From Haemophilus haemolyticus (lineage in GTDB: Bacteria; Pseudomonadota; Gammaproteobacteria; Enterobacterales; Pasteurellaceae), in the NCBI RefSeq assembly GCF_003351405.1, contig NZ_CP031240.1, forward strand, positions 868,001 to 932,000: DNA of 64,000 nucleotides, in the 5' to 3' direction. Position numbers and translations under genes: made by a program. Below the pieces are notes generated by a model. The model searched no databases. It was not told the DNA's origin and worked only from the letters and a program-made list of their open reading frames with translations. Positions 5,039 through 62,640 of this stretch are shown piece by piece (positions within the stretch are counted from its first letter, which is position 1; each line of letters begins with the position of its first letter).

Positions 5039-8000
5039 ATGGTGAATAAAACCGCTCAACTTAAACAAGCTCTAGAAAATCGTATTCTCATTTTAGACGG
5101 TGCGATGGGGACGATGATCCAAAAATATAAACTGACGGAAGCCGATTTTAGAGGCGAGAAGTTTAAGGAAAGTGCGGTCGATTTACGCGGTAATAATGAT
5201 TTACTGACATTGACTCAGCCACTGCTAATTTCCGCTATTCATGAGAAATATTTGGCAGCGGGTGCCGATATTATTGAAACCAATACTTTTAGTTCAACTA
5301 CGATTGCTCAAGCGGATTACGACTTGCAATCTATTGCTTATGAACTCAATTTTGTTGGCGCAAAATTAGCTCGTTTGGCAGCAGATAAATATAGCACGCC
5401 AGAAAAACCTCGCTTTGTCGCAGGCGTGTTAGGGCCAACAAACCGTACAGCCTCCATTTCACCCGATGTAAATGATCCCGGTTTCCGCAATGTGACTTTT
5501 ATGGAGTTGGTGGATGCTTATGCCCAAGCAACAAAAGGCTTAATTGAAGGTGGTGCGGATTTAATTATGATCGAAACCATTTTCGACACGCTTAACGCTA
5601 AAGCTGCAGTTTTCGCCATTGAAAGTGTATTCGAAGAATTAGGCGTAGAATTGCCAATCATGGTTTCCGGCACCATTACCGATGCTTCTGGTCGTACGCT
5701 TTCAGGGCAAACCACTGAAGCGTTCTACAACTCGCTTCGTCACGCAAAACCGCTCACTTTTGGTTTGAACTGTGCGTTAGGTCCAAAAGAATTACGCCAA
5801 TATGTAGAGCAGCTTTCAAAAATCAGTGAAACCTATGTTTCTGTGCATCCGAACGCGGGCTTGCCAAATGCTTTTGGTGGTTATGATTTAGGGGCAGAAG
5901 AGATGGCGGCTCACTTAAAAGAGTGGGCAGAAAGTGGTTTTGTGAACATTATCGGCGGTTGTTGCGGCACCACACCGGAACACATTAAAGCCTTTGCTGA
6001 GGCGGTAGAAAACATTCCACCACGCAAATTACCACAAATCAAAACCGCGATGCGTTTATCGGGTTTAGAACCACTCAATATTGACGATGAAAGCCTGTTC
6101 GTGAACGTGGGTGAACGTAATAATGTAACTGGTTCAGCAAAATTTAAACGTTTAATTAAAGAAGACAAATTTGCAGAAGCTATTGAAATTGCCATCGACC
6201 AAGTAGAAAACGGCGCGCAAGTCATCGACGTGAACATGGACGAAGCCTTGCTCGACGGCAAAAAATGCATGACCCGTTTCCTCAACATTATGGCGACGGA
6301 ACCCGATGCAGCTAAAGTGCCGGTGATGATCGACTCCTCCAAATGGGAAGTGATTGAGGCAGGTTTGCAGTCGGTGCAAGGCAAACCGATTGTGAATTCT
6401 ATTTCCTTAAAAGAGGGCGAGGAAAAATTTATTCATCAGGCTAAATTGGTGCGTAAATACGGTGCAGCCGTTGTGGTAATGGCGTTTGACGAAGTGGGAC
6501 AAGCGGACACCGAAGAGCGAAAAGTCGAAATCTGTACCCGTGCTTATAACATCTTAGTCAACCAAGTAGGCTTCCCGCCAGAAGACATTATTTTCGACCC
6601 GAATATTTTCGCCATCGGCACTGGGATTGAAGAACACAATAACTACGGCGTGGATTTCATTAACGCCACAGGTCGTATTAAACGATCTTTACCGCATGCG
6701 AAAATTTCGGGCGGTGTGTCAAATGTCTCTTTCTCTTTCCGTGGAAATAATGTCATGCGTGAGGCGATTCACGCAGTGTTCCTATATTATGCCATCAAAC
6801 AAGGCATGGATATGGGGATCGTGAACGCAGGACAGCTAGCGATTTACGATGATCTTGATCCTGAATTACGTAATGTGATTGAAGACGCCGTCTTGAACCG
6901 CACACCGGATGGCACAGAACGTTTACTGGATATTGCAGAAAAATATCGCAACCAAGGCAACGATGAAAGTGCGGTGGATTCTGTGGCCGAATGGCGCACT
7001 TGGCCGGTGGAAGAACGTTTAAAACATGCCCTCGTGAAAGGCATTACCACGCACATCATCGAAGACACCGAAGAAGCGCGCCAAAAATTGCCAACGCCGT
7101 TAGAGGTCATCGAAGGTCCGCTCATGGCAGGTATGGACGTGGTAGGTGATTTGTTTGGCGATGGTAAAATGTTCCTGCCTCAAGTGGTGAAATCCGCGCG
7201 CGTGATGAAACAATCCGTGGCGTACTTGGAGCCGTTTATCAACGCCACCAAACAAAAAGGCTCAAGTAATGGAAAAGTGGTGATCGCCACCGTGAAAGGC
7301 GACGTGCATGATATCGGCAAAAACATCGTAAGCGTGGTGTTGCAATGCAATAACTTTGAAGTGATTGATTTAGGCGTTATGGTGCCAGCGGACAAAATCA
7401 TCCAAACCGCTATTGATGAAAAAGCCGACATTATCGGCTTGAGCGGTTTGATTACGCCATCCCTAGACGAAATGGAATACTTCCTCGGCGAAATGACGCG
7501 CCTAGGTTTGAACTTACCAGTGTTGATTGGCGGGGCAACTACATCGAAAGAGCATACTGCGATTAAACTTTATCCAAAATACAAGCAACATGGTGTGTTC
7601 TATACCTCTAATGCATCAAGAGCAGTAACGGTTTGTGCCACGTTGATGAACCCTGAAGGGCGTGCGGCATTGTGGGAACAGTTCAAAAAGGATTACGAGA
7701 AAATCCAGCAATCCTTCGCCAATCGCAAACCACTACGTAAACAACTGAGCATTGAAGAAGCGCGCGCCAATCGTTTTGATGGCTTTAGCGGTGAATGGGC
7801 GGATTATGTTCCACCAACGCCAAAACAAACGGGCATTGTGGAATTCAAAAACGTGCCGATTGCCGAGCTGCGCAAATTTATCGACTGGTCGCCATTCTTC
7901 CGTATTTGGGGCTTGATGGGCGGCTACCCTGATGCCTTTGATTATCCGGAAGGCGGAGAAGAAGCACGCAAAGTGTGGAACGATGCACAAGTGGTATTGG

Positions 8001-8728
8001 ATGAATTAGAGCAAAACCATAAACTCAACCCAAGCGGTATTTTAGGCATTTTCCCTGCCGAACGCGTGGGTGATGATGTGGTGCTTTTCTCTGATGAAGA
8101 ACGCACACAGCCCATTCGCACAGCTTATGGCTTACGCCAACAAACGGAACGTGGCAAAAACAGCAAAAGCCCATTTAACTTCTGCTTAAGCGACTTTGTC
8201 GCCGATCGCGAAAGCGGTAAAAAAGACTGGTTCGGCATGTTCGCCGTGTGCGCTGGTATTGAAGAAATGGATTTAGTGGAAGGCTACAAAGCCGCAGGCG
8301 ATGACTACAATGCCATCTTGCTACAAGCCGTAGGCGACCGCCTCGCCGAAGCCATGGCAGAATACCTGCACTTTGAACTCCGCACCCGCATTTGGGGCTA
8401 CACGCAAGAAGAATTCGACAACCAGGGTTTAATCAACGAAAACTACGTCGGCATCCGCCCTGCGCCGGGTTACCCAAGCTGCCCGGAACACACGGAAAAA
8501 GCCTTGATTTGGGATTTATTAGAAGTAGAACAACGCATCGGCATGAAACTCACCGAAAGCTACGCCATGTGGCCGGCAGCTTCTGTTTGCGGTTGGTACT
8601 TCACTCACCCAGAAAGCAACTATTTCACTCTAGGTCGCATCGATGAAGATCAAGCTCAAGATTATGCCAAACGTAAAGGTTGGGATGAGAGAGAGATGAT
8701 GAAGTGGTTGGGGGTGGCGATGAAGTAA
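5039..8728 (+). CDS. metH: Cobalamin-dependent methionine synthase MetH
   Basis: Transfers the methyl group of 5-methyltetrahydrofolate through methylcobalamin to homocysteine, giving methionine. At 1229 residues it is full length. Order of domains: homocysteine-binding barrel (about 1-330) with zinc ligands in NCALG and [10 protein letters not shown]; pterin-binding barrel (about 350-620); cobalamin module with the DxHxxG motif in [10 protein letters not shown] near residue 755 (base 7301); and the C-terminal SAM-binding activation domain with ELRTRIWGY and [12 protein letters not shown]. No obvious MetJ box was seen upstream. The gene needs B12; the BtuB/F/C/D-like cluster 4-8 kb downstream could supply it. 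Confidence 0.97.
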
Positions 8729-8769
8729 AAAATCTTTTTTTTTAATTCTTTTTGGGGGTATAATAATAC

Positions 8770-8797
8770 TGTATATAATTACAAACGGGGAGGGGTT
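8770..8797 (+). promoter_or_regulatory. Likely ribosome binding site and promoter region of kwaAB
   Basis: TATAATAATACTGTATATAAT at 8759 onward provides a good -10-like hexamer and ACGGGGAGGGG directly precedes the ATG at 8798, a strong Shine-Dalgarno sequence. The metH stop lies about 70 bases upstream, so the insert seems to carry its own promoter. Confidence 0.5.
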
Positions 8798-9385
8798 ATG
8801 CTTAATAAATTTTCACGCTTCATCCTTACTGCAAGTAGTGTATCACCAGTATGTGGAACTATTGCGTTTCTTGTATGGGTAAAAAGAGATCATGAAACAT
8901 GGAATCTATTAGAACATTTTCTAAATTGGCAATTTAATAATAATGAAGTTCTATTTTTAATTTCTATAGTATTGTTTATTCTTAGTATAGCTTTGTTTCC
9001 TATAGTATTTTTTTACGCTAAAAGAGAAGAAATATGGAGTCATCCTATAGAAATAAGAATAAACTCTATAAAGTCAAAAAATAGTGAAATGACGAGTTAT
9101 TTATTAGGATACTTATTCCCTTTAATCGCTGGTGGAGATCTATTTTCAAATATTTATATTGCTTCTTTTTTTTATGTAATAATGTTTTTTGCAGTATGGT
9201 TTTCAGATACATATGGGTTTAATCCAGTTCTTGCTCTATTAAAATATAAATTTTATGAAGCAGATAGTGAACAAGGGATAGGATTAACTATAATAACTAA
9301 AGGACCTATTCATGACCTAAAAGAAAATATGAATATGGTTCAATTGACAGATTATGCTTATATGCAAGTTATGGAGGAATTATGA
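8798..9385 (+). CDS. kwaA: KwaA-like membrane protein of a Kiwa anti-phage system
   Basis: 195-residue integral membrane protein with about four helices (roughly 8-28, 50-73, 98-117, 121-140) and a C-terminal cytoplasmic segment containing KYKFYEADSEQGIGLTIITK. Length, topology and the pairing with a DUF4868-like protein match KwaA, the membrane component of Kiwa that senses phage infection and recruits KwaB. It overlaps kwaB by four bases (ATGA), which implies translational coupling. The gene is clearly more AT-rich than metH before it, consistent with horizontal gain. The assignment rests on family memory, not on a search. Confidence 0.72.
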   Translation: MLNKFSRFILTASSVSPVCGTIAFLVWVKRDHETWNLLEHFLNWQFNNNEVLFLISIVLFILSIALFPIVFFYAKREEIWSHPIEIRINSIKSKNSEMTSYLLGYLFPLIAGGDLFSNIYIASFFYVIMFFAVWFSDTYGFNPVLALLKYKFYEADSEQGIGLTIITKGPIHDLKENMNMVQLTDYAYMQVMEEL

Positions 9386-10275
9386 AATTTTTTGCAATAT
9401 TGCAAGGCGAGCAGTTTGCTTCTAGAGTAATGAGATTTAAATTAGATCAGACGGCGGAGTCTCTGATAAAGAATATTCTTACAGAAGCTGTAAGTAAATT
9501 TGAATTAGCTAATACAGAGATCCCATTTTCTGCAGACTATACTCCAAGCCAGAATGAGTTATTTATCATAGATGATTTTAATAGTGGAATTGATCTCAAT
9601 GCTCTTTTAGAAAATCCTACTGGAATTCCTATACTCCAATTAGAAGGAGGAAGTGATAGTTTGTCATTAAATGATATCGTGGGAATTATTGCTACTGACA
9701 TTCCAAATAACAGAGTATTAATACAGTATTTTGAAAAAAGAAATATCATTGAGCTATCTCGATCTATTATTCAAAGATTGGTAAATAATCGTTATGAGTT
9801 TGTGGCAGCTACTTCTAATGGAATTTCGATACCAACAGATATATTAGCTATTCTAGATCATAATAAAAAATTAAAGTTCAGATCTTTTCAGAGATTAAGA
9901 CATATCTTTGATATGGATTCGTATTTTAAAGAAGCTACAGATGAAGAGCTAAATAATTTTGTTAATAATTGTTCAAAATTAGAAGTAATACAAGGTTTCG
10001 ATATACAAGAAATTGATGACACAATGATTAGAAAAAAAATAGCTATAATAAATAAAGCTGATATTTTAAATAATTACAGCGTGGATGAATTAAAAGTCGC
10101 TGCTCATAGCATTGGTTATCCCTTACCATTGAATCAATCAGGAGATAAAATTCAATTACCAAATAATAAAAAACAATTTAAAGATCTTCTCCAATTTTTA
10201 AGTTCCAATATCTATGAAGATCCTATTTCACACGCAACAAGAATAACGAATTCTAGTCGTTTATATACAAATTAG
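9382..10275 (+). CDS. kwaB: KwaB-like DUF4868 protein of a Kiwa anti-phage system
   Basis: 297-residue soluble protein without signal or membrane helices. The C-terminal two thirds has the pattern expected for DUF4868: a repeated segment around NRVLIQYFEKRNII, then LKFRSFQRLRHIFDMDSYF followed by KEATDEELNNF. KwaB is the DNA-interacting effector of Kiwa, reported to work with membrane KwaA to stop phage replication or late transcription. It is coupled to kwaA by a 4-base overlap and has the same very low GC content. Next to it lie palindromic repeats and a lone ATPase gene, so the spacer after metH looks like an accessory-gene site. Confidence 0.75.
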   Translation: MKFFAILQGEQFASRVMRFKLDQTAESLIKNILTEAVSKFELANTEIPFSADYTPSQNELFIIDDFNSGIDLNALLENPTGIPILQLEGGSDSLSLNDIVGIIATDIPNNRVLIQYFEKRNIIELSRSIIQRLVNNRYEFVAATSNGISIPTDILAILDHNKKLKFRSFQRLRHIFDMDSYFKEATDEELNNFVNNCSKLEVIQGFDIQEIDDTMIRKKIAIINKADILNNYSVDELKVAAHSIGYPLPLNQSGDKIQLPNNKKQFKDLLQFLSSNIYEDPISHATRITNSSRLYTN

Positions 10276-10352: not shown

Positions 10353-10622
10353 GGTGCAAGCGTCCTCGCTTGTGCCTCTCAACTAAAAGTGCGGTCAAAA
10401 AATCCAACGGATTTTAAATATTAGTTCTGCCAACGGTTATGCGTAGAATTCACATGTTTTTATTAGACAGCACCAACGAGGATGCTGGCGCTATCTATCT
10501 TTATCAGCTCATCTCTGTTGGCGCACGCTTCCTAGCGTGTGCCTAATTTCACTAAAAAACACCTGAAAAACTGACCGCACTTTAATTTCCAAGGCACGCG
10601 TTAAGAAAGGCGCACCAACGTG
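10353..10622. repeat. Cluster of short palindromic interspersed repeats and uptake signals
   Basis: The roughly 395-base gap between kwaB and the ATPase gene holds no gene. Related imperfect palindromes occur at 10353-10376 (GTGCAAGCGTCCTCGCTTGTGC type), 10470-10491, 10520-10543 (GGCGCACGCTTCCTAGCGTG type) and 10592-10618. Three uptake signals lie between them (about 10388, 10573, 10638). The core is an inverted repeat around a CTAG or TCCT-type centre, reminiscent of REP-like elements in many Gram-negative genomes. No transposase is near them. Confidence 0.6.
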
Positions 10623-10669
10623 AGCATTAGTCACCAAAAGTGCGGTTAAAATTTCCAGCGTTTTTATAT

Positions 10670-11872
10670 TTACTGCAACAACCAATCCACCACATACATC
10701 ACTTCAATTCCCTCAATCTCCGTTTTTTCGTAATATTTCCCCGTAATTAAGATCTTCTTATAGTTATCTTTAATATGCAAAAGATTATCTGTTTCGTGGG
10801 TATTTTCAGGGATTTCAAAGGCGACTTGCACATACAAAATCTCATCGGCTTTTCGGGAGATAAAATCAATTTCTTTGCTGTCAAGTTTACCGACATCTAC
10901 GGTATAACCACGTCTGAGTAATTCAATAAAGACGATATTTTCTAGTCGATTGGCATAATTCGCGCCTTTTTTGCCGATAGCGTGTCGTCTTAACCCGTTA
11001 TCCACAATAAAATATTTGGCATTGGTTTTTAAATAACCTTTTCCGCGAATATCGTATTGTTTTGCTTTATAAAAAAGAAAGGCATTTTCTAACAGATCAA
11101 GATATTTGCTGATCGTGTGGTTTGAGGTGGGGACACGTTCGGACGTGAGCGTGTTGCTAATTTTGCTCGGATTCACCAACTGCCCTACATTATCCGCCAG
11201 AAAGAGAATCACGCTTTTAAGAATATGCGTGTCTTTCACGCCGGCTCGATGCGCAATGTCATTCAGCACGATGGAATCAAAAATACCTGATAAAATCGTT
11301 TCTTTTAAAGGTTCATCAGCAATGGCGACACTGGGGAAACCGCCGTATTTTTCGTATTCCGAATAGAGTTTATCCACCAATCTTGATTGGCTATCCACAT
11401 TTTTAGAACGTAAAAATTCTTTAAAAGAAAGCGGATAAATTTTGATTTCCACATATCGACCGCTTAACAGCGTCGCAAGCTCACCGGAAAGCAAGTTGGC
11501 ATTGGAACCCGTAATCACAATGTCAGTGTTAAAACTCACGCGAAGCGCATTGACAATTTTTTGCCAACCTTCCACAAACTGAATTTCATCAATCAACAAG
11601 TAGATTTTCTCTTGAGAGGACGGCATTTTTTCTTGAATAAGCTGTTGGAAGTCTTGAGCGTCTTTCACCCATTGATATTCAAAAGATTCAAAATTGAGAT
11701 AAAGAATATTTTCGGAAGCAATGCCTTGTTGTTGAAGGTAATCACGGTATTGCATGAGTAGCACTGATTTACCGGAACGACGAACACCAGAGATCACTTT
11801 GATAAAATCGGTATCTTTAAATTGAATCAGTTGCTGTAAATAATTTTCACGAGAGATCATAGTTTTACTCAT
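10670..11872 (-). CDS. AAA-type ATPase with DUF4143 domain
   Basis: 400 residues. The N-terminal AAA_14 ATPase domain has Walker A GVRRSGKSVLL (about residues 28-38), Walker B YLLIDEIQF and sensor region DIVITGSNANLLSG. The C-terminal half is a DUF4143 domain with a nuclease-like fold, including the segment TVDVGKLDSKEIDFISRKAD that resembles a restriction-type active site (E-I-D-F). These single-gene proteins are very common in bacteria but their role is not established; defence or regulation has been suggested. Two direct repeats sit right at the start codon and may be operators. An alternative Met four residues later exists. Confidence 0.85.
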   Translation of the reverse strand: MSKTMISRENYLQQLIQFKDTDFIKVISGVRRSGKSVLLMQYRDYLQQQGIASENILYLNFESFEYQWVKDAQDFQQLIQEKMPSSQEKIYLLIDEIQFVEGWQKIVNALRVSFNTDIVITGSNANLLSGELATLLSGRYVEIKIYPLSFKEFLRSKNVDSQSRLVDKLYSEYEKYGGFPSVAIADEPLKETILSGIFDSIVLNDIAHRAGVKDTHILKSVILFLADNVGQLVNPSKISNTLTSERVPTSNHTISKYLDLLENAFLFYKAKQYDIRGKGYLKTNAKYFIVDNGLRRHAIGKKGANYANRLENIVFIELLRRGYTVDVGKLDSKEIDFISRKADEILYVQVAFEIPENTHETDNLLHIKDNYKKILITGKYYEKTEIEGIEVMYVVDWLLQ

Positions 11873-62037: not shown

Positions 62038-62640
62038 TTACCCCTTAAAGGGGTCAACATGTTCTTTCGTTGATAAATTATCTTGAACCATATCTTCTTT
62101 TTCTTGGTTTCTTATATAATCCTCTACTGCTTTTGTATTTAACCCTACTGTGCTTACAAAAAATCCTTTCGCCCAGAAATGCCTATTTCCATATCTATAT
62201 TTTAAGTTCGCGTGTCTTTCAAAAATTATTAGCGCTGACTTCCCCTTCAGATAGCCCATAAAACCTGATACTGATATTTTAGGTGGGATTTTTAAGAGCA
62301 TATGGATAGGGTCTGGCATTGCATGCGCTTCTATTATCTCCACATTTTTATAGTCACATAACTGCCTCAATATTTGACCTATATCTGCTCTTAACTTTCC
62401 ATAAATTGCTTTTCTTCTGTACTTCGGGATAAATACAATGTGATACTTACCGTTCTATTTTGTGTGTGATAGACTTGAATTGTCACTGGTTTTACTTACC
62501 ATGATAACTCCTATATGTTGAATTATGGTTGTCAGCCTTGTTCATTATATAGCGAGGATTTTTTCTGTTCATCGCTTAAGCTATTTGGCTCCATACGCAT
62601 AGCGTATGGTTTTTGTAGCCAGACTTTCGTCTGGCTATAA
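61965..62640 (-). mobile_element. Decayed IS200/IS605-type element (approximate limits)
   Basis: A single Y1-type transposase reading frame is flanked by small stem-loops: GCCCCTCAAGGGGC on the left and CCATACGCATAGCGTATGG (62592-62610) on the right. No terminal inverted repeats or target duplications, as expected for IS200, which moves as a single strand. The limits are estimates; the transposase is broken by a stop. Confidence 0.55.
62038..62502 (-). pseudogene. tnpA: IS200 transposase TnpA with an amber stop
   Basis: Reading from ATG at 62502 gives MVSKTSDNSSLSHTK, then TAG at 62457-62455 where IS200 proteins have Trp (LSHTKWNCKYHIVF), then NGKYHIVFIPKYRRKAI and the rest of the TnpA core to 62038. 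The HUH-type motif appears as AHAMPDPIHMLLKIP, and the active-site Tyr region as GLNTKAVEDYIRNQE. A single base change of TGG to TAG disabled it; otherwise the frame is intact. Confidence 0.8.

Follow-up and report, generated by a model that had tools for sequence, protein, structure and literature searches.

Kiwa and the locus downstream of metH

The Kiwa anti-phage system of Escherichia coli consists, according to parts of the published accounts, of two genes, kwaA and kwaB, which encode a small membrane protein and a soluble protein (PMC12904381, PMC12593503); KwaA tetramers in the inner membrane, together with KwaB dimers, are recruited to sites of phage injection, KwaB binds DNA and halts replication and late transcription without cutting, and there is a link to RecBCD (PMC12904381, PMC12593503, PMC11514479). 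A second point of reference are the core defence hotspots cDHS1 and cDHS2 of Pseudomonas aeruginosa, with median sizes of 26 and 6 kb in the part of the account used here (PMC10250203). The DNA analysed in this work is a 64,000-nucleotide (nt) stretch of the Haemophilus haemolyticus genome (the window), in which a gene pair at 8798-10275, downstream of metH, is identified by its sequence as a Kiwa anti-phage system, one more member of a known system. Our best joint explanation, which takes in both this identity and the swapping of cassettes and which we consider probable, is that the pair at present occupies a core defence hotspot of the Pasteurellaceae.

The pair had been assigned to KwaA/KwaB from size and coupling in an earlier sequence-only reading, and searches against the PADLOC profiles bear this out: 12 KwaA models match the first protein (best PDLC00216, 2.1e-49, over residues 1-191) and four KwaB models match the second (best PDLC00225, 1.4e-85, over residues 1-294), in the right order. 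The solved Kiwa KwaA chain 9mrg was found at 4e-6 by a profile built from four KwaA sequences; a PDB sequence search with KwaA and KwaB singly gave no match, and the KwaB profile found nothing there beyond chance, only an unrelated protein at E 0.055. Speaking against the assignment, KwaA scores 52.1 bits (6.7e-14) with the NCBIfam KwaA equivalog NF041622, under the curated cut-off of 100 bits, and we do not place it in that narrower family. Pfam matches neither protein, for KwaB even with E values as high as 10 allowed, and the DUF4868-like character once given to KwaB comes from the PADLOC description. Since NCBIfam stays below its cut-off and Pfam returns nothing for either protein, the pair appears to belong to a rather distant Kiwa branch. 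It thus resembles E. coli Kiwa in its gene order, in its combination of a small, predicted membrane protein KwaA with a soluble KwaB and in the reach of its KwaA profile to 9mrg, and differs from it in the sub-threshold KwaA score and in the lack of a PDB match beyond chance for the KwaB relatives.

The same two-gene layout, with the same order and similar sizes, occurs on the Klebsiella phage ST846-OXA48phi9.1 (annotated as hypothetical; KwaA and KwaB both 38% identical) and on the filamentous Pseudomonas phage PfAC02a (named KwaA and KwaB by the depositors; 23% and 29% identical), which carry it on phages and not at a chromosomal core-gene site; relatives with this layout are also found in a genome of the same order (G139). 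Among 149 genomes (the window's own and relatives) KwaB was matched only in the window's genome, in G139 and, as a fragment, in G049 (Rodentibacter), which leaves the own genome and this one fragment within the family. Plasmids gave one distant match and phages two, and the collections of genome contigs and viral contigs held no KwaB relative. Because KwaB relatives are so few among the family genomes, the pair looks like a rare or lone arrival in the Pasteurellaceae. The G049 remnant (L003, 1501-1719; 56% identical over 73 residues) contains a stop codon and lies on a different contig from metH.

The two genes are adjacent and co-directional, with a 4-nt overlap (ATGA), and their GC contents of 0.276 (kwaA) and 0.292 (kwaB) compare with 0.39 for the whole window and 0.45-0.51 for the last 1.5 kb of metH; both open reading frames, their overlap and their AT-richness had been described correctly from the sequence. 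The four helices ascribed to the first protein were not recovered, as a simple hydropathy scan of KwaA gives only three segments above threshold (8-26, 51-69 and 115-133). A promoter scan listed no site in the leader between metH and kwaA, and there was no excess over shuffles. The AT-rich, foreign-looking composition, and the existence of a KwaB remnant with a stop codon in Rodentibacter, could be taken to mean that the pair is a decaying passenger, inactive in this host; both reading frames are intact, however, the genes are ATGA-coupled and served by a purine-rich ribosome-binding site, and the profile matches are near full length, so that we regard decay as unlikely. By analogy with E. coli Kiwa, from which we infer the action of the Haemophilus pair, KwaA would be an inner-membrane protein that senses the attachment of a phage or its injection, and KwaB would bind phage DNA as it enters the cell and prevent both its replication and late transcription.

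Cassettes downstream of metH across the Pasteurellaceae

Directly downstream of metH there is usually a single small cassette of foreign character, and most species have a different one. In the first 20 relatives the C-terminus of MetH is 93-98% identical (over all 229 residues queried in 18, and over 219 and 148 residues in the other two), and all 20 have AT-rich DNA directly after metH, in which 17 different cassettes were distinguished by reading. In four close genus-mates the identity of the right flank is 86-88% across 6.7-8.5 kb, and therefore it is mainly the cassette that differs. Further species were added in a second round, some of them as named contigs of Actinobacillus, Glaesserella, Rodentibacter, Testudinibacter, Ursidibacter, Muribacter and Avibacterium, to give 46 loci, a part of the 80 family genomes with a metH-end match; kept out were L064-L066 (duplicates of L150, L141 and L140), L054-L057 (contigs of G164, G061, G178 and G064), and L147 and L148, where metH is broken. 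The GC content of the 1.2 kb after metH is below 0.35 in 43 of the 46 loci (exceptions L060, L062 and L073) and lies more than 0.08 below that of metH in 45 (exception L073). Such a drop occurs in 16 of 17 named Pasteurellaceae loci, as against 4 of 43 loci of other bacteria, the latter hand-picked for length from 60.

At a threshold of 1e-5, PADLOC, run on 44 of the 46 loci (not L044 and L048), found a match in 31, of 25 kinds when the OLD-like, Gabija, TIR and PifA-like repeats are merged. The first-round names are AbiP2 (L036), retron II-A (L037), retron III-A (L051), Septu (L043), Gabija (L053), JukA-like (L045), PDC-M45 (L034), PDC-S47 (L049), OLD-like (L046) and TIR (L052); the second round added PDC-S11, ApeA-like, TIR-NLR, PDC-S49, PDC-S71, PDC-S15, PifA-like (twice), NsnA, a type I methyltransferase, PDC-S26 and a second Gabija. 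Pfam domains in the cassettes include an Mrr-type endonuclease (L042) and an NgoFVII-type PLD (L041), and Rfam, run on four loci, gave no retron RNA, only an Aggregatibacter small RNA in two. The suggestion that the pair lies in a local defence-gene site is supported by the different, often anti-viral cassettes at the related loci. Among nine neighbouring core proteins chosen as a control one has a PADLOC match (an ABC ATPase), or two of ten with the ATPase to the right of the cassette; Fisher's test gives P = 0.0015 and 0.009, respectively, for a comparison that sets loci on one side against single proteins on the other and rests on a small, self-picked set. PADLOC-negative cassettes, several of which are two-gene pairs, stand in L035, L038, L039, L040, L042, L050, L137, L140 and L149 and are candidate new defence systems.

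Should Kiwa have come to lie near metH by plain accident, with the relatives' genes there unrelated by chance, the rarity of KwaB relatives in the family would be in keeping with a lone arrival. The sequence nevertheless changes at the same base in all 46 loci, mostly to AT-rich DNA, the PADLOC matches extend to 31 of 44 and the right flank is kept in the four genus-mates, which makes such an accident extremely improbable. The conserved core flank at 46 loci and the many immune systems across genomes are those of a core defence hotspot, and the nearest published kind is that of P. aeruginosa, which, in the part of the account used here, shares with the metH site fixed core flanks, many immune systems, lower GC content and no single mobile element (PMC10250203). 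The two differ in that the Pseudomonas hotspots belong to one species, cDHS1 with several systems (PMC10250203), whereas the metH site spans many genera with usually one cassette of about 1-4 kb; the latter also has a stop codon as its exact left edge and, in many loci, palindromes with uptake sequences at its right end. Among the titles and abstract beginnings that surfaced in our literature searches, neither a defence site at metH nor Haemophilus Kiwa was a subject.

The right-hand neighbour of the Kiwa cassette, an AAA_14/DUF4143 ATPase, itself matches the PADLOC candidate family PDC-S01 at 1e-156; it is found at the same place in several relatives, and other genes stand there in other loci. 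In three genus-mates (G004, G005 and G008; L143, L144 and L145) metH has decayed and lacks a large internal part, and the 3' end and the cassette are kept; in L035 and L040 the metH frame is shifted close to the end of the gene by a GA run that is shorter, and the MetH match stops about ten codons early.

Edges of the metH site

The left edge of the cassettes falls on the metH stop codon. Across 40 loci, aligned without gaps, the final 60 nt of metH have a mean pairwise identity of 0.833. The value is 1.00 at the T of the stop codon and 0.324 between +4 and +60, against 0.323 expected there from base composition. This set includes distant genera; L044, L047, L048, L072, L139 and L146 were taken out, a related cassette being represented already, and related pairs such as L053/L068 stayed in. 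As a control, the 30 nt after other stop codons are 0.80-1.00 identical in 23 of 24 cases when four close relatives are compared (one unaligned), while after metH the 36 ungapped pairs of nine genus-mates average 0.33, with a maximum of 0.50; the control gene ends were aligned with gaps and the metH flank without, and ungapped identity inside metH averages 0.68 (minimum 0.28) among these genus-mates, because two loci have an indel.

In most Haemophilus and Aggregatibacter loci the right border consists of palindromes resembling repetitive extragenic palindromic (REP) elements, often with uptake sequences. The repeats noticed beside the pair from the sequence are confirmed, and consist of three uptake-sequence cores and short palindromes of one family, spanning 10353-10646 (Table 1). 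Palindrome A or B is present within 4.8 kb after metH in 22 of 33 loci, in many of them tens of bases from the last cassette gene, and an uptake sequence lies within about 150 nt of the right end in 15 of 23. The type B pattern occurs in 6 of 10 genomes, in seven copies which are all at the metH site or in an array of displaced metH tails in G172; type A, at up to 3 mismatches, occurs in 22 of 31 genomes, 14 of which have a copy within 5 kb after metH. At this stringency ten Haemophilus-like genomes have 0-3 type A copies each, which rules out a common dispersed repeat there, and four Aggregatibacter-like genomes have 12-13. An ordinary terminator was also rejected, since no T-run follows the palindrome and the terminator scan listed nothing at this place. 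Within 24 cassettes (39.4 kb) there is no uptake sequence, where 36.9 would be expected at the density of the window, and this absence marks the cassettes as foreign.

Table 1. Features in and around the Kiwa cassette (window positions)
Feature	Position	Strand	Remarks
metH	5039..8728	+	1229 aa; left-hand core gene flanking the hotspot; final sense codon ends at 8725; open reading frame
Left cassette edge (metH stop codon)	8726..8728	+	nothing above chance common to 40 loci beyond it
Cassette leader	8729..8797	+	AT-rich promoter-like stretch and purine-rich ribosome-binding site (putative function)
kwaA	8798..9385	+	195 aa; predicted membrane subunit and sensor; PADLOC PDLC00216, NCBIfam KwaA, 9mrg by profile
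kwaB	9382..10275	+	297 aa; soluble subunit, predicted DNA-binding effector; PADLOC PDLC00225; aligned with four relatives
Palindrome type A	10353..10376	+	right cassette edge; this genome has one other copy if up to 3 mismatches are allowed
Uptake sequence core AAGTGCGGT	10387..10395	+	beside palindrome A
Palindrome of the same family, inverted	10469..10492	-	read from sequence
Palindrome type B	10520..10543	+	sole copy in this genome with the pattern used
Uptake sequence core AAGTGCGGT, inverted	10574..10582	-	
Further palindrome of the cluster	10593..10616	.	read from sequence
Uptake sequence core AAGTGCGGT	10638..10646	+	
AAA_14/DUF4143 ATPase	10670..11872	-	right-hand neighbour of the cassette

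Movement of the cassettes

Some cassettes are more alike than the metH genes next to them. The TIR cassettes of L052 and L146 are 0.93 identical, as against 0.80 for metH until shortly before the stop, and from this difference we conclude that the TIR cassette travelled between species largely without metH; in two further pairs, each from two genera, the values are 0.99 for the cassette and 0.90 for metH (L035/L044), and 0.99 and 0.92 (L041/L048). Pieces of metH have moved as well. Displaced metH tails of about 110-200 nt, one in L140 and two in L142, stand after a palindrome-type element and before other cassette genes, so that tandem units of a metH tail plus a cassette do exist, and they show that joins inside metH tails have happened. 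The tails of L142 lie far from metH, together with a ParA-like gene and an RT-Toprim-type gene (the latter named by eye) beside selD, and this region is a broken-up cassette array.

Many islands integrate at the 3' ends of genes. A site-specific tyrosine recombinase which uses the end of metH as its attachment site, the enzyme acting in trans or having been lost, would account for a left edge that is base-exact in 40 loci, and for the displaced metH tails that lie beyond cassettes in L140 and L142, a layout expected once an element has inserted at the end of a gene. Among the matches listed for 33 genomes, however, there is no tyrosine integrase near metH: none lies within 15 kb, and the nearest are about 16 and 18 kb away in two genomes. 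A second copy of the metH end was found only in L140 among 32 loci, in a search that reached 6 kb, or less where a locus is shorter, and the three displaced tails start at different points (about -183, -110 and -150 to -200) and hence give no sign of a fixed crossover core. The linked integrase and flanking attachment repeats of an integrase-borne genomic island are thus not found here; with the integrases as listed and 31 of 32 loci free of a metH-end copy, no single mobile element stands behind the site, as in a hotspot. We hold the recombinase to be an unlikely explanation, albeit one with a small real chance of being right.

The Pasteurellaceae are known for natural competence, and, apart from the base-exact left edge, for which it does not account, the joining of DNA by homology in such cells fits the data better than a fixed attachment site would. 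Most likely, each cassette would be exchanged as a whole through natural transformation and homologous recombination, with metH as the left arm, and the palindrome/uptake-sequence cluster and core genes as the probable right arm.

Several points, besides the NCBIfam score and the small control set mentioned above, weigh against a hotspot of exchangeable defence cassettes. Thirteen of the 44 loci have no PADLOC match (L035, L038, L039, L040, L042, L050, L059, L060, L061, L073, L137, L140, L149), several matches are to candidate (PDC) families or are weak (L041, L058, L062, L069), and some kinds recur among the 31 positive loci (OLD-like in four; Gabija, TIR and PifA-like in two each). Neither palindrome A nor B was found after metH in 11 of 33 loci, two of which have too little sequence. 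In four same-family pairs the divergence of the cassette equals or exceeds that of metH (L047/L072, L046/L072, L053/L068 and L047/L139), and in L046/L047 the difference is small, so that recent transfer is shown only for some cassettes. Finally, a base-exact left edge is not predicted by plain homologous recombination.

Two copies of near-type-A palindromes (1-3 mismatches from type A) lie just upstream of a gene for a 183-residue Y1-type transposase in G007, G164 and G179, and one copy lies just downstream of it in G175 and G197 (regions L163, L164, L165, L166 and L169, fetched because the coordinates were close). This suggests that the palindromes are REP elements of a family served by a REP-associated tyrosine transposase (RAYT), the RAYT label coming from the Y1_Tnp match and the layout. 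They resemble REP/RAYT elements in that a palindrome family has a Y1-type transposase gene beside copies in five genomes, and differ in being few per Haemophilus genome (0-3), with several at the edges of variable cassettes. In G000, G002, G004, G005 and G007 type A copies stand at metH, at the gene for the 183-residue Y1-type protein or in one toxin-like locus. In the window's own genome and in G039, exact type A copies also form the borders of modules resembling contact-dependent inhibition (CDI) toxin arrays (L153, about 6760; L154; L155), a likeness judged by eye, no family search being made.

One could imagine from this layout that a RAYT helps to cut or join cassettes at the right edge, perhaps on transforming single-stranded DNA. 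Against this, a Y1_Tnp match is missing in 12 of 29 genomes, and none stands beside the two palindromes of the window's genome; 3 of 8 fetched Y1 regions have no such palindrome (L167, with the same 183-residue gene, L168 and L170), type A copies in L158 and L159 stand in ordinary intergenic places, and there are the 11 loci without palindrome A or B. A part of REP/RAYT elements in cassette exchange is therefore possible but weakly indicated, and an active RAYT at the right edge seems very unlikely to us. Elsewhere in the window, at 62104-62457, there is a Y1 transposase (IS200-like) match with one stop codon.

Bolder still, and in our view quite unlikely, the metH site might be a dedicated exchange locus, in which the unit exchanged would be metH tail, stop codon, system and palindrome cluster, bordered by REP elements and uptake sequences and possibly handled by a RAYT on transforming single-stranded DNA. 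If this were true, the same border at CDI-like toxin arrays would point to a general exchange device for conflict genes in the Pasteurellaceae, and serving as an exchange border would give REP/RAYT elements a function.

What is gained by this analysis is the site, not Kiwa. The base after the metH stop codon is a single, easily found address for compact, often anti-viral cassettes, and different cassettes occupy it in species of many genera of this animal- and human-associated family. New bacterial immune systems may be sought there, with the 13 PADLOC-negative loci as leads, and through its exact left edge, its right edge of palindromes and uptake sequences and the displaced metH tails, the swapping of defence genes without linked integrases becomes a testable question in competent bacteria.
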